DNA of 54,579 nucleotides from Butyrivibrio sp. (GTDB lineage: Bacteria; Bacillota; Clostridia; Lachnospirales; Lachnospiraceae): the NCBI RefSeq assembly GCF_017433805.1, contig NZ_JAFRGN010000062.1:1-54579 (forward strand). Reading direction: 5' to 3'. A model generated the notes under the pieces. That model did not search any database and was not told the origin of the DNA. It was given only the letters and a program-made list of their open reading frames with translations. A program made the position numbers and the translations under genes. Position 1 is the first letter of the stretch. Each line of letters begins with the position of its first letter. Shown here piece after piece: positions 34,526 to 45,818 of this stretch.

Positions 34526-34632
34526 GTTCCTTATTATCAAAAAAAGACACACGAATGTAAAAAATATGCACTTTGAAACCGGCTTGTAATGGGGTAATTT
34601 ATTCTACAGGAGTTCACAAGGAGGGTATAAAC

Positions 34633-41730: not shown

Positions 41731-41847
41731 GTATATTTGCAAAGCGGTGCATGCTGCCAAACCAGCATTTATGCTATCGAAATAATATTTCATAAAAATT
41801 TAATGATTTAATGGGCTAAAGCAGTGGCTTTTCAGTTTCGATTAGTA

Positions 41848-41929
41848 TATAATGTTCCCATTGAATGAAATTTTGTTGTAAAGGTTATCGGTTGAGGGGC
41901 CATGAGGCCTTTACAAGCCAGTCATTCAA
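41848..41929 (+). promoter_or_regulatory. Promoter and structured leader of the 81-residue protein gene
   Basis: TATAAT lies at 41848-41853, so RNA should start near 41860. The leader opens immediately with TTGAATGA (41861-41868), which pairs with TCATTCAA (41922-41929). Nested inside, TTGTAAAGG (41876-41884) pairs with CCTTTACAA (41908-41916). The two perfect stems and the 23-base loop form one extended structure ending about 20 bases before the ribosome binding site. I do not recognise a riboswitch class. Confidence 0.5.
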
Positions 41930-41959
41930 CAATTTCTTATGAGACGGAGGAATTAAATA

Positions 41960-42205
41960 ATGAGAAGTTCCGCTAAGGCAAAAAGAGGCATGAGTCAGAG
42001 CTGCATCGAAATCATGTCAGACGCAATCAAGGCAATGGAGCAGAACCTATCATACGGCAAATTTAAGGCTCTTGATATGTTAGGAGCCGGCAGTATGCAG
42101 GACGAGTATTACGAATCAGAGTACCAGGTGTACACGGACAACATCGTTCGCAAGACTGAGCACACTGAGACCAAGAAAGCAGTAGCTTTTGTAAAAGTTA
42201 GATAA
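41960..42205 (+). CDS. Small protein of unknown function (81 residues)
   Basis: No recognised family, no signal peptide or membrane helix. The N-terminus is basic (MRSSAKAKRGMSQS), the middle looks helical (IEIMSDAIKAMEQNLSYGKF), then an acidic, Tyr-rich stretch (MQDEYYESEYQVYTDN) and a basic end. Strong ribosome binding site GACGGAGGAA, a promoter with a structured leader, and a perfect terminator indicate a real, independently transcribed gene. Favoured codons (for example GCA, CTT, AAG) suggest good expression. It could be an RNA-binding or regulatory small protein, but nothing in the sequence settles that. Confidence 0.6.
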   Translation: MRSSAKAKRGMSQSCIEIMSDAIKAMEQNLSYGKFKALDMLGAGSMQDEYYESEYQVYTDNIVRKTEHTETKKAVAFVKVR

Positions 42206-42240
42206 ATCTTTTTCTGACAACTGAATATGGTGAAATGTTG

Positions 42241-42726: not shown

Positions 42727-44190
42727 ATGAAAAGGAAAGTTTTGGTAATTTTACTTTGCAGTGCTCTGTCACTTGGGGGAGTGGCGTGCGGGGCTGTAGA
42801 AGTCGGAGAGGTTGCTGGACAACAACGCAGTATCGAGGATACGCCTGCGGTTTCGGAAAGTACAGAGGGTAATGAGGGGACTGAGCAAACAACGGATAAA
42901 GAGGAGAATACAGTGAGCAAGGAATTAACAGCAAGTCAGAGAGCAGTAATTGTAGGTCAGGATTGGGGTCCTGCAGTAACTAAGACAATTTTAAAATTTG
43001 ATGAGAAGGTAAAGGAGACTTCTGTATCAGCTGAGGACTTCAAGGTAATGGAAACCAAGGAGATGTTCAACTGGTCAGCTCTTGCTGAAGGGTCAACAGC
43101 TGATCCAACCCAGCACATCGAATTCGAATCAGAGAGAAAAGTAGTTGATGCTTATACTTGTGACGAGAATGGTGAAAAGACATCCGACTCTGAGTATGTG
43201 GCTGTAGAGCTGTACTATAGTCCTGATGAGGGATCACCATTTTGCTATGATCTCTTCAAGGGAAACAATACAATCTGCAACCCATATAACCTGGCAGTAA
43301 CTCTTGCTGATGGACAGACTCTTACAGCAGAGGCTGGAGATGAGGTTGTATCAGTAACTGTTAATGACAAGATTGATTTTGATAATGCATTTTATCCACA
43401 GCTTCTTAAGACAGATATTTCACTTGAGTTTACAGGAGCTGAAGGACATACAATTCATTATGCTTCCTATGAACCAGAAGCTGATGGTGCTAAGCACCCT
43501 CTTGTAATCTGGCTTCACGGAGCTGGAGAGGGCGGAAATGACCCAAGACTTAACACACTTGGCAACGAGGTTACAGCTCTTTACAGTGATGAGTTCCAGA
43601 AGGTAATGGGAGGCGCTTATGTACTTGCTCCTCAGTGCCCAACATTCTGGATGCAGTATGATGAATCAGGCAACTGGATGGATAACAAGGGCGTAGATTC
43701 AATTTACCTTCATGATCTCAAGGAGCTTATTGATGCTTATGTAGCTGATCATGAGAACGTTGATGCAGACAGAATCATCATCGGCGGATGCTCAAATGGT
43801 GGTTACATGACAATGGATATGATCCTGAACTATCCTGATTACTTTGCAGCAGCTTATCCTATCTGCGAAGCTTACAATAACTCTGGTATCACTGATGAGC
43901 AGCTTGCATCAATCAAGGACCTTCCTACATGGTTTATATATGCTAAGAACGACACAACAGTTGATCCTACTGTAATTGAAGAACCAACACTTGCGCGTCT
44001 TAATGCAATTGGAGCAAATGTTCATACAAGCGTATTTGATGATGTACACGACACATCTGATACCTACAAGGGTCAGGATGGCAATGCTTATCAGTACATG
44101 GGACATTGGTCATGGATTTATTTCTTCAACAATGAGTGCGAAGATAATGGCGTGAACATGTGGCAGTGGATGAGCGAGCAGCATAAATAA
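42727..44190 (+). CDS. Secreted alpha/beta-hydrolase esterase lipoprotein
   Basis: Protein of 487 residues. The signal peptide ends in GGVACG near residue 18, a lipobox-like site, followed by an acidic linker to about residue 60. A beta-rich N-terminal domain (about 65-235) precedes the hydrolase domain: HPLVIWLHGAGEGGNDPRLN (oxyanion loop), ADRIIIGGCSNGGYMTMDMI with nucleophile Ser in GCSNGG, LPTWFIYAKNDTTVDPTVIE, and a late His in DDVHDTSD. This is the layout of secreted carbohydrate or feruloyl-type esterases and related predicted peptidases. Anchored outside the cell, it may strip ester groups from plant polysaccharide before uptake by the nearby importer. It starts after AAAGGGAGG. Confidence 0.75.
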   Translation: MKRKVLVILLCSALSLGGVACGAVEVGEVAGQQRSIEDTPAVSESTEGNEGTEQTTDKEENTVSKELTASQRAVIVGQDWGPAVTKTILKFDEKVKETSVSAEDFKVMETKEMFNWSALAEGSTADPTQHIEFESERKVVDAYTCDENGEKTSDSEYVAVELYYSPDEGSPFCYDLFKGNNTICNPYNLAVTLADGQTLTAEAGDEVVSVTVNDKIDFDNAFYPQLLKTDISLEFTGAEGHTIHYASYEPEADGAKHPLVIWLHGAGEGGNDPRLNTLGNEVTALYSDEFQKVMGGAYVLAPQCPTFWMQYDESGNWMDNKGVDSIYLHDLKELIDAYVADHENVDADRIIIGGCSNGGYMTMDMILNYPDYFAAAYPICEAYNNSGITDEQLASIKDLPTWFIYAKNDTTVDPTVIEEPTLARLNAIGANVHTSVFDDVHDTSDTYKGQDGNAYQYMGHWSWIYFFNNECEDNGVNMWQWMSEQHK

Positions 44191-44304
44191 TTAAAACTTT
44201 TTTGCCACAGGATTTTTTGTTTCGTATATATATACAGAAAGTGAAATTTAATAACAAAAACAAATAGCAAAGATGAATGTTGGGCAAAAAAGGAGGCCAT
44301 AGAA

Positions 44305-44460
44305 ATGGACAGAATGTATAATGCAGTAAACAACACAAAGATGGGTAACAATAAGAAGTCTTCAATCGGTGATTGCAGAGGCAGATTAAGTGATAGAGAG
44401 ATGAAGGTCATCGAGATCGCACTTATCAGATATGCTGACAGATTCGCAATGGCACACTGA
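44305..44460 (+). CDS. Very small protein of unknown function (51 residues)
   Basis: ATG at 44305 with a perfect AGGAGG nine bases upstream, 51 codons and TGA at 44458. Basic, with MDRMYNAVNNTKMGNNKKSS and then GRLSDREMKVIEIALIRYAD, a likely amphipathic helix. No family recognised. It lies 114 bases after the esterase gene and just before a strong terminator, so it may be the last gene of that transcript. Codon choice is like that of real neighbours. Its helical part could form a protein or RNA contact. Confidence 0.5.
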   Translation: MDRMYNAVNNTKMGNNKKSSIGDCRGRLSDREMKVIEIALIRYADRFAMAH

Positions 44461-44523
44461 GAATAGTAGATGTTCGTGACCATTGTGATAGTTGGATAAA
44501 GGAACAGATAAATTTTTATTATA

Positions 44524-44559
44524 AGAGGCACGCTACAGTACTGCAGCGTGCCTCTTTTT
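44524..44559 (+). terminator. Terminator after the 51-residue protein gene
   Basis: AGAGGCACGCT pairs with AGCGTGCCTCT, with CAG/CTG inside, followed by five T residues. Confidence 0.92.
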
Positions 44560-44631
44560 GCAATTTATATTGATCAATTATGACTTTGGGCCTTGTAATT
44601 CCACCTCCTAAGACAGCGCTTCACGAGATAT

Positions 44632-44989
44632 ACTGTTGTAATCTTGAATTCTGCGATATCCAACAGTAGTAAAACGAGGTGTATAACTGTTGGAATCTGG
44701 AATTTTGCGATATCCAACAGTAGTAAAACGAGGTGTATAACTGTTGGAATTCGGATTTTTGCAAAAACCAACAGTAATAATTTGAACTGTTGTACTGTTG
44801 AAATATGAAAAATGTCGAAATTCAACAGTAAAAACAAAGTATAGTTACTGTTGAAATCTTAGAATATGAAAAAACAACAGTATCTGGATGACTAAAATCA
44901 CTGTTGAAATTCTCGAATATGAAAAAACCAACAGTAACATGATCACAAAAGTTACTGTTGGAATTATCAATTCTATCAAAAACAACAGT
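44632..44989. repeat. Array of seven palindromic repeat units at 53-54-bp period
   Basis: Seven units each begin with ACTGTTG and end with its reverse complement CAACAGT. Units span 44632-44667, 44686-44721, 44740-44775, 44794-44829, 44847-44881, 44900-44935 and 44954-44989. Each is 35-36 bases, separated by 17-18 bases. Within units the ends are invariant, the centres diverge, and stems often extend to 8-9 bp by compensating changes (for example GGA with TCC in unit 2, GAA with TTC in unit 4). The first two inter-unit stretches are identical. The array lies between a terminator and the 3' end of a minus-strand membrane protein gene. Each unit can form a hairpin in RNA or a cruciform; the spacings between units can also form hairpins. 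Confidence 0.85.
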
Positions 44990-45008
44990 TAAAGGCTGTA
45001 ACACGAAC

Positions 45009-45073
45009 CCTAATAGTCTCTGTTTAACCACCTAATAGACTCTGTTTAACCCCTAACAATTCCTGTTGAAATA
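45009..45073. repeat. Degenerate 22-bp direct repeats beside the palindrome array
   Basis: CCTAATAG followed by t/a and CTCTGTTTAACC occurs at 45009 and 45031, 22 bases apart, with a weaker third copy (CTAACAATTCCTGTTGAAA) from about 45052. The CTGTTTAA or CTGTTGAA cores resemble the half-sites of the adjacent palindrome array. Confidence 0.5.
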
Positions 45074-45098
45074 GCATGTTTAGTAAAAGCCAAGCGTC

Positions 45099-45764
45099 TT
45101 ATGCCATACGGAATACGTGCTTACCAAGGAACTTGCCGACAACGGTGATGATAGGTCCCAGGAAAAGAGCCATGAGGACGATTCCGATGTTAGGTGTTCC
45201 GCCAAAGAGAACTCCGATGAGAATTACAAGGAAGTCGTAAGCAATACGGATCACGGCGAAAGGAATCTTCTTGAGCACGCGCTCAGAAAGTATCTGAGGC
45301 ATTGCATCGTAAGGAGATACGCCCATGTTCGCATTTATATAGAAGGATACTGATATGATGAAAAGAAAAAGAGCAAGAGCGAAGATCACAGCCCTTGAAG
45401 GCATATCAGTAAAATAGTGTTCTGGAATTGTCTTTTCCCAAAGCCAGCAGAAGAAATCTGCGATGTATCCGATGAAAACCATATTGGCAATTGTTCCAAA
45501 GCCAATAAATTTGCGACCAAAAAGAATTACCAGTATGAATAATACTGAATTAAGCAGAAGCTGCCAGTTACCAAAGCTGATCCCAAAGAACTTTGATAAA
45601 GTCAGGTTCATGAAGGTGCATGGATCTGTACCAAGATCAACCTTGATAAGGAAAGATAAGAAGAATCCCATGAAAAATACGCCGATGTTCATGAGCACCA
45701 AACGCTTGGTGAAATCCTTCTGTGAAAAATAATCTGTTAACCATTTCTTAAGTGAAGCTATCAT
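45099..45764 (-). CDS. YczE/YyaS/YitT family membrane protein
   Basis: Integral membrane protein of 221 residues with five to six hydrophobic helices. It matches YczE/YitT-like proteins: NIGVFFMGFFLSFLIKVDLG then TDPCTFMNLTLSKFFGISFG, the typical glycine-Thr-Asp-Pro loop after the first helix, ISVSFYINANMGVSPYDAMP as the internal repeat of that motif, and GTPNIGIVLMALFLGPIITV near the end. The internal repeat suggests two homologous halves. Transport substrate is unknown. AGGAG six bases before the ATG. The palindrome array begins about 110 bases past its stop. Confidence 0.78.
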   Translation of the reverse strand: MIASLKKWLTDYFSQKDFTKRLVLMNIGVFFMGFFLSFLIKVDLGTDPCTFMNLTLSKFFGISFGNWQLLLNSVLFILVILFGRKFIGFGTIANMVFIGYIADFFCWLWEKTIPEHYFTDMPSRAVIFALALFLFIISVSFYINANMGVSPYDAMPQILSERVLKKIPFAVIRIAYDFLVILIGVLFGGTPNIGIVLMALFLGPIITVVGKFLGKHVFRMA

Positions 45765-45818
45765 AATAATCTCCTAAAAAACTATATATTGCTGCCAGCC
45801 ATAATTCTGGCATAGGGC

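Follow-up and report, generated by a model that had tools for sequence, protein, structure and literature searches.

An orphan palindrome array in a Butyrivibrio genome is probably the DNA half of a two-part Lachnospiraceae system

The palindrome array and its surroundings

Seven palindromes stand in a row at positions 44632–44989 of a Butyrivibrio sequence, upstream of neither neighbouring gene, and they raise the question of what such an array does and which protein it might belong to. Throughout, the window means the whole stretch of DNA analysed, 54,579 bases in length. Every unit carries exact ACTGTTG and CAACAGT ends. The first occupies 44632–44667, and a pattern search placed the other six at 44686–44721, 44740–44775, 44794–44829, 44847–44881, 44900–44935 and 44954–44989. 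The units are 35–36 bp long (the fifth is 35 bp), are separated by gaps of 17–18 bp and start 54, 54, 54, 53, 53 and 54 bp apart, so that all coordinates and spacings of the initial annotation, which had described a seven-unit array with constant ends and a 53–54-bp period, were reproduced. An additional ACTGTTG half-site lies within the third spacer (44786–44792). Adjacent units are often almost copies of each other, and so are adjacent spacers; the first two spacers are identical, and the unit centres diverge. An in-register palindrome scan of the window returned this as its sole array, and across the whole host genome the real unit pattern gave 9 matches versus 0 for a reversed control pattern; the array is confirmed as more than chance.

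The genes on either side lie outside the system. To the left are a 487-aa gene (42727–44190, + strand), presumably encoding an esterase-like lipoprotein, and a possible 51-aa ORF with AGGAGG upstream (44305–44460, + strand), which was read from the sequence and falls below the 60-aa limit of the ORF list. A hairpin with 17-nt arms and no loop, followed by a T-run (44523–44556), looks terminator-like by eye; a terminator scan that required a loop of 3–8 did not list it. The right-hand neighbour is a 221-aa membrane protein gene (45099–45764, − strand) with its 3′ end toward the array, whose product we take to be YczE/YitT-like. The orientation scan scored the site as codirectional owing to a 137-aa ORF, which we read as probably spurious, and the site as convergent. 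A sigma-70 scan found 3 sites versus 3.8 expected, and an Rfam search of 44000–45800 gave three matches, all far under the gathering score. Folding is better than in shuffles for both strands of the array (z = −7.3 and −9.1), as it must be for any palindrome array. To the right of the array, a 21-nt repeat, CCTAATAG.CTCTGTTTAACC, occurs at 45009–45051 in two copies that are 95% alike and 22 bp apart; these are possibly decayed half-sites.

The initial annotation had held that an absence of such repeats from every other genome would count against it, and a search of other genomes for the pattern did find them. The host carries a second array, on its contig C2, and another genome of the genus (G021) has 40 exact units on at least six contigs. 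A covariance model, R1, built from 33 two-unit stretches of the window array and close relatives, matched 24 of 79 Butyrivibrio genomes at E 0.001, the host included; three of these (the host, G021 and LB2008, our G073) match by construction, the model having been built partly from them, and in seven there are no more than two matches. The ends vary by genome (ACTGTTG, CCTGTTG, CTGCTG, CCTATTG, CTGTCT and others), with the inverted complement mostly kept. The stem co-variation that had also been claimed did not appear in the alignment of the 33 two-unit stretches, which scored 0.063 versus 0.067 in shuffles, with 80.1% of cells paired versus 80.7%. Compensated differences occur between loci and species and none within arrays; given the lack of covariation among close members, compensated change is thus a matter between loci.

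Several matches were rejected. In 61 genomes, single exact units (one match each in six genomes besides the host and G021) were not accepted as members; the reversed control matched in eight. Half of the 16 triple-pattern stretches (L028, L029, L033, L035, L036, L037, L039 and L040) proved to be coding or unrelated repeats. In Lachnospiraceae Tb.RUG.215 (L038; JAEELL010000102.1, about 750–1120), an array with a 54-bp period and no CTGTTG ends lies beside a single ACTGTTG unit.

A PD-(D/E)XK-like protein family and the arrays beside its genes

In G021, a 267-aa gene has arrays on both sides, and further arrays adjoin its relatives. The proteins of this family, about 267 aa long, have a C-terminal half that is PD-(D/E)XK-like and an N-terminal half that is unclassified. 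The C-terminal half of the G021 protein matches the nuclease regions of PADLOC PDC-S68 (2.1e-24), and the R-S-K-x-E, E, P-D and E-H-x-G positions, which we take to be the PD-(D/E)XK catalytic site, are invariant in 43/43 aligned members. Pfam returned no family for three members (the first one scanned gave only a sub-threshold Peptidase_S39 match), and NCBIfam none for four. At E 0.5, the 43 aligned members gave no consistent Pfam match, the listed families each coming from one member only, and Y1_Tnp (PF01797) is not among the 25 of 42 matched families listed. Neither Pfam nor NCBIfam gave a ToxN/AbiQ-type endoribonuclease match in the family, Pfam and solved structures identified no DNA-binding fold for the N-terminal half, and the solved-structure search yielded no convincing relative of the protein.

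At E 1e-5 the family is matched in 69 of the 79 genomes of the genus, and its profile at E 1e-20 matches 97 of 299 Lachnospiraceae genomes, about a third of the sample. The phage and plasmid collections gave three records each, none spanning 80% of the protein; IMG/VR gave eight loci with the C-terminal part only, and PHROGs one weak match. Two family genes (L112 and L134) are broken by stops, so decayed copies exist. On contig C14 of G069, three family genes (at 34619, 53488 and 60004; L253 and L254) lie in a 26-kb stretch of variable genes downstream of rlmD, which suggests a hotspot. The host's own RAYT was considered as the partner and rejected, as it sits beside a different palindrome: its 259-aa Y1_Tnp (RAYT-like) gene (L044, G000:C34:58819-62154, positions 1468–2247, + strand) has a palindrome around GGACGGGGTTAGTGG on both sides, and the GGACGGGGTTAGTGG palindrome recurs next to the host's C2 array (L021) as well as in several further genomes.

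We searched 98 family loci of the genus, 800 bp on each side, for the best set of 6-nt inverted arms, with spacing not assumed and a threshold score of 6. Arrays were found upstream in 60/98 loci, downstream in 7/98 and in Markov shuffles of the upstream sequence in 0/98. Among 29 separate loci, 28 of them from other genera, the counts were 16 upstream, 1 downstream and 0 in shuffles; this set omits L186, which repeats a host locus, and scores as misses L202, with 1 bp upstream, and L196, L199 and L209, with less than 250 bp. When both sets are joined, arrays lie within 800 bp upstream in 76/127 loci and downstream in 8/127, with none in shuffled upstream sequence, and clustering of the 127 proteins at 60% identity leaves an upstream array in 29 of 49 clusters and a downstream one in 7. 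A second script, which sought three or more units in a 51–56-bp register, found 38/98 upstream, 3/98 downstream and 0/294 in dinucleotide shuffles. Some arrays end 22–60 bp from the start side of the gene. The 51/127 loci under the array threshold include some short of upstream sequence and some palindromic by eye, and some may be without any array.

The upstream neighbour in 47/127 loci is the 3′ end of an rlmD/rumA-like (21), rpsI (11), guaA (10) or rho (5) gene, four families chosen after clustering and named from their sequences; all 47 are on the same strand as the family gene. The gene order ahead of the site is conserved and the site tracks the protein clade, so shared descent may explain it. 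Of 21 orphan sequences, 2 likewise follow rlmD-like genes. Direct repeats of at least 15 bp across the gene were found in 6/127 loci. An 83-bp direct repeat with the ATAGGAT palindrome flanks the family gene on both sides in L162 (G019:C2:479190-482906), and direct repeats of 60 and 32 bp occur in L157 and L150.

Spacing classes, half-sites and palindrome specificity

Once spacings of 100 bp or more, where units are missing, were set aside, all 244 spacings of the genus set fell at 51–55, 62–64, 74–76, 83–84 or 94–95 bp and all 81 of the separate set at 51–54, 63–64 or 74–75 bp, so that 325/325 lie in five classes of approximately 5–9 helical turns. With one value per array (76 arrays), the classes hold 47, 16, 7, 4 and 2 arrays with means of 53.5, 63.6, 74.7, 84.1 and 94.5 bp (one 8-turn value, from L067, comes from a poor array); the classes rise with a slope of 10.25 bp, and a period of 10.35 bp fits best (R = 0.925). 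The 29 protein clusters are spread 9/8/7/3/2 over the five classes, and the quantisation is therefore not one clade counted often. Classes also mix within single arrays, as in L091 (54.5 and 64 bp), L119 (75 and 54 bp) and L152 (53, 64 and 76.5 bp). The window array, at 53–54 bp, belongs to the 5-turn class. Quantised spacing is what one-face binding of double-stranded DNA predicts, and the spacing points to DNA bound in this way, not to RNA hairpins. Among the roles that the initial annotation had offered, a protein-binding array, spaced in whole helical turns, is the best reading, and its view that the palindromic form is under selection was borne out.

The anatomy of the units was examined in 428 units from 76 arrays. 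Beyond the six detected arm positions, complementarity continues toward the unit centre for approximately three more (59, 52 and 38% versus 27–30% between arrays) and is near background deeper in; on the outer side of the arms, the second position exceeds background (47 versus 27%), and the first does not clearly do so. A unit therefore consists of two inverted half-sites of about 8–9 bp and an unpaired centre. Complementarity did not exceed that of within-array shuffles. Arm mismatches, read in the gene sense, comprise 38 G-U and 49 A-C. At several positions deeper inside the arms G-U exceeds A-C, and it does so equally at background positions; we take this surplus to be base composition.

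Both the palindrome and the spacing class follow the protein tree (from which L112 was left out). Where two proteins differ by less than 20% in the N-terminal half, their palindromes are almost the same (mean distance 0.00–0.04) and so is the class; above 50% N-terminal difference the palindrome distance is flat at 0.47–0.48. In a Mantel test without L089 and L112, palindrome distance correlated with N-terminal distance given C-terminal distance (r = 0.27, 0/2000 permutations), while the value for C-terminal given N-terminal distance was −0.09; spacing class correlated similarly with both halves (0.63 and 0.70). This partial correlation suggests that the N-terminal half of the family protein reads the palindrome DNA.

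The window copy, competing explanations and known systems

Eight query proteins gave no match to a family gene at E 1e-5 in the whole window. The window array has company in this respect: a family gene lies in the fetched stretch (mostly 1.5 kb per side) at 10 of 31 distinct array places and is absent from the other 21, for which simple autoregulation does not account. Orthologues of the right-hand gene were found in the loci of 11 relatives, six of which (L212, L215, L216, L218, L221 and L222) are without the array. There, the gene corresponding to window 41768–42234 adjoins the right-hand gene (about 60 bp apart in L212), so the host carries some 2.9 kb extra, in which the array is accompanied by the esterase gene. 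In G001 and G031 (L214 and L217), TTACCT orphan arrays with 75-bp spacing and no family gene lie next to the right-hand membrane gene. No clean empty site emerged from the flanks of the second host array.

A close family member is present in 19 of 24 genomes with window-type arrays versus 14 of 55 without (Fisher p = 1.3e-5), at a cut-off (best E 1e-85) chosen after the data were seen. The nearest family gene of the host, on contig C17, is 59% identical over residues 41–267, and its protein is weakly (89/73) sister to the CTGTTG-rich group in the tree. The array upstream of it appears by eye to be mainly CTGCC-type, its farthest part having CTGTTG-like ends, and scores below threshold, which leaves the cognate protein of the window array uncertain; it may be the C17 protein, or the cognate may have been lost.

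The array, the family, the link to a nuclease-like gene, the clade-specific palindromes and the helical spacing are computed. On this sequence evidence we give a probability of roughly 0.7 to the view that the window array belongs to a two-part Lachnospiraceae system, of which it would be the DNA half in an orphan copy. Each unit would be bound in double-stranded form, at both of its inverted half-sites, by the N-terminal half of the family protein, which is probably a dimer, and neighbouring complexes would meet on one face of the helix and assemble cooperatively. Such an assembly might regulate its own gene and hold the nuclease, and orphan arrays would be binding platforms copied to, or left at, gene-free places. 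We infer binding and cooperative assembly, and can only guess at autoregulation or a wider role. The window array is then most likely a stranded binding platform, a stray copy in a gut bacterium. The partner family, the spacing classes and the solitary state of this copy go beyond the initial annotation. A broader proposal, to which we give slightly less than even odds, is that these loci form an undescribed chromosomal two-part class in Lachnospiraceae. A genome would then encode several PD-(D/E)XK proteins with a separate palindrome for each; on helically phased sites they would cooperatively build nucleoprotein arrays along one face of the helix, and would seed or strand such arrays at other places in the genome, possibly as a DNA-scaffolded nuclease switch for defence or for guarding integration hotspots.

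Arrays might instead be spread by the nuclease itself, nicking or cutting the palindromes and copying or moving the arrays in a REP/RAYT-like manner, with the window array as a non-autonomous copy. The 21 gene-free array places agree with such traffic, as do the same-end arrays of G021, where the one close family gene lies next to one of these, the six relatives whose neighbours adjoin without an array, and the different arrays that G001 and G031 have at a comparable place. However, the flanking direct repeats are too few to favour it, and the orphan arrays L060 and L063 share their flanks across two species, as vertical inheritance predicts; we consider this account unlikely, though worth keeping in view. 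Insertion of gene and array together at the 3′ ends of conserved genes, as by an ICE or a homing endonuclease, draws on the 47 loci described above, and one report names rumA, rpsI and guaA as ICE targets in streptococci (PMC4701971). Descent can account for a site that tracks the clade with its upstream gene order conserved, the direct repeats are again rare, and the four gene families were picked only after clustering, so that a site-specific element seems to us rather improbable.

Two further readings dispense with DNA binding. In the first, the array is transcribed into a multi-hairpin leader by which the protein is controlled or inhibited, in the manner of type III toxin-antitoxin loci. 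This would suit arrays placed upstream in the gene direction, some ending close to the gene, and strands that fold better than shuffles. Such an RNA had also been among the roles first suggested, but whole-turn spacing has no RNA rationale, the arms hold no excess of G-U over A-C mismatches, the deeper surplus is matched at background positions and no Rfam match rose above the gathering score; we regard it as very improbable. Plain tandem repeats, maintained by duplication with no binding protein, would explain why neighbouring units and spacers resemble each other so closely. Duplication, however, keeps a period without jumping, whereas these spacings jump by whole turns even inside single arrays, the half-sites stay complementary while the centres drift, and the arrays show an upstream bias and clade-specific palindromes. 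We give this last reading hardly any credence.

The two-part system that we favour would connect an enigmatic repeat with a multi-copy protein family that carries no annotation. Its spacing classes reveal helical phasing from genome sequence alone, so the protein-binding mechanism is directly testable, and its many clades with their own palindromes offer a natural library of protein-DNA specificities. The open-licence literature searched yielded no description of such a system.

Its nearest likeness is to REP/BIME elements and RAYTs. A RAYT study (PMC2817692) describes palindromes beside a DNA-processing gene, co-evolving with its protein and with extra copies in the genome, and here too palindromes lie beside the gene, track its clade and occur in further genomic copies. 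Unlike a RAYT, the family protein is PD-(D/E)XK-like and not a Y1_Tnp, and each of its units has an unpaired centre of about 18 bp between two short half-sites. Where a RAYT has two inverted REPs, the arrays here lie mainly on one side of the gene, and they have helical-turn spacing classes and, among the motifs listed, no GTAG head. Phased operator and iteron arrays are repeated sites upstream of autoregulated DNA-binding protein genes. They share the helical register and the position upstream of a likely binder gene, but the partner here is nuclease-like and orphans are common, the window one lying between what appear to be convergent genes. The PADLOC candidate defence models PDC-S68 and HEAT_CxxC_PDDEXK have a related C-terminal nuclease region; the PDC-S68 profiles, however, run to approximately 1,200–1,270 positions, only the end of which matches, and neither the N-terminal half of the family nor the array is part of these models. 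Type III toxin-antitoxin loci likewise place a repeat array ahead of a nuclease-like gene, whereas the palindromes here are in helical register and carry no RNA pairing signature. The window array is not a CRISPR, as the initial annotation had recognised, since near-identical repeats with unlike spacers are absent and it is the centres that diverge and the first two spacers that are identical. The two-part system fails defining features of both REP/RAYT and CRISPR that were tested, while sharing with the former its further palindrome copies in the genome and its palindromes beside a gene whose clade they track.
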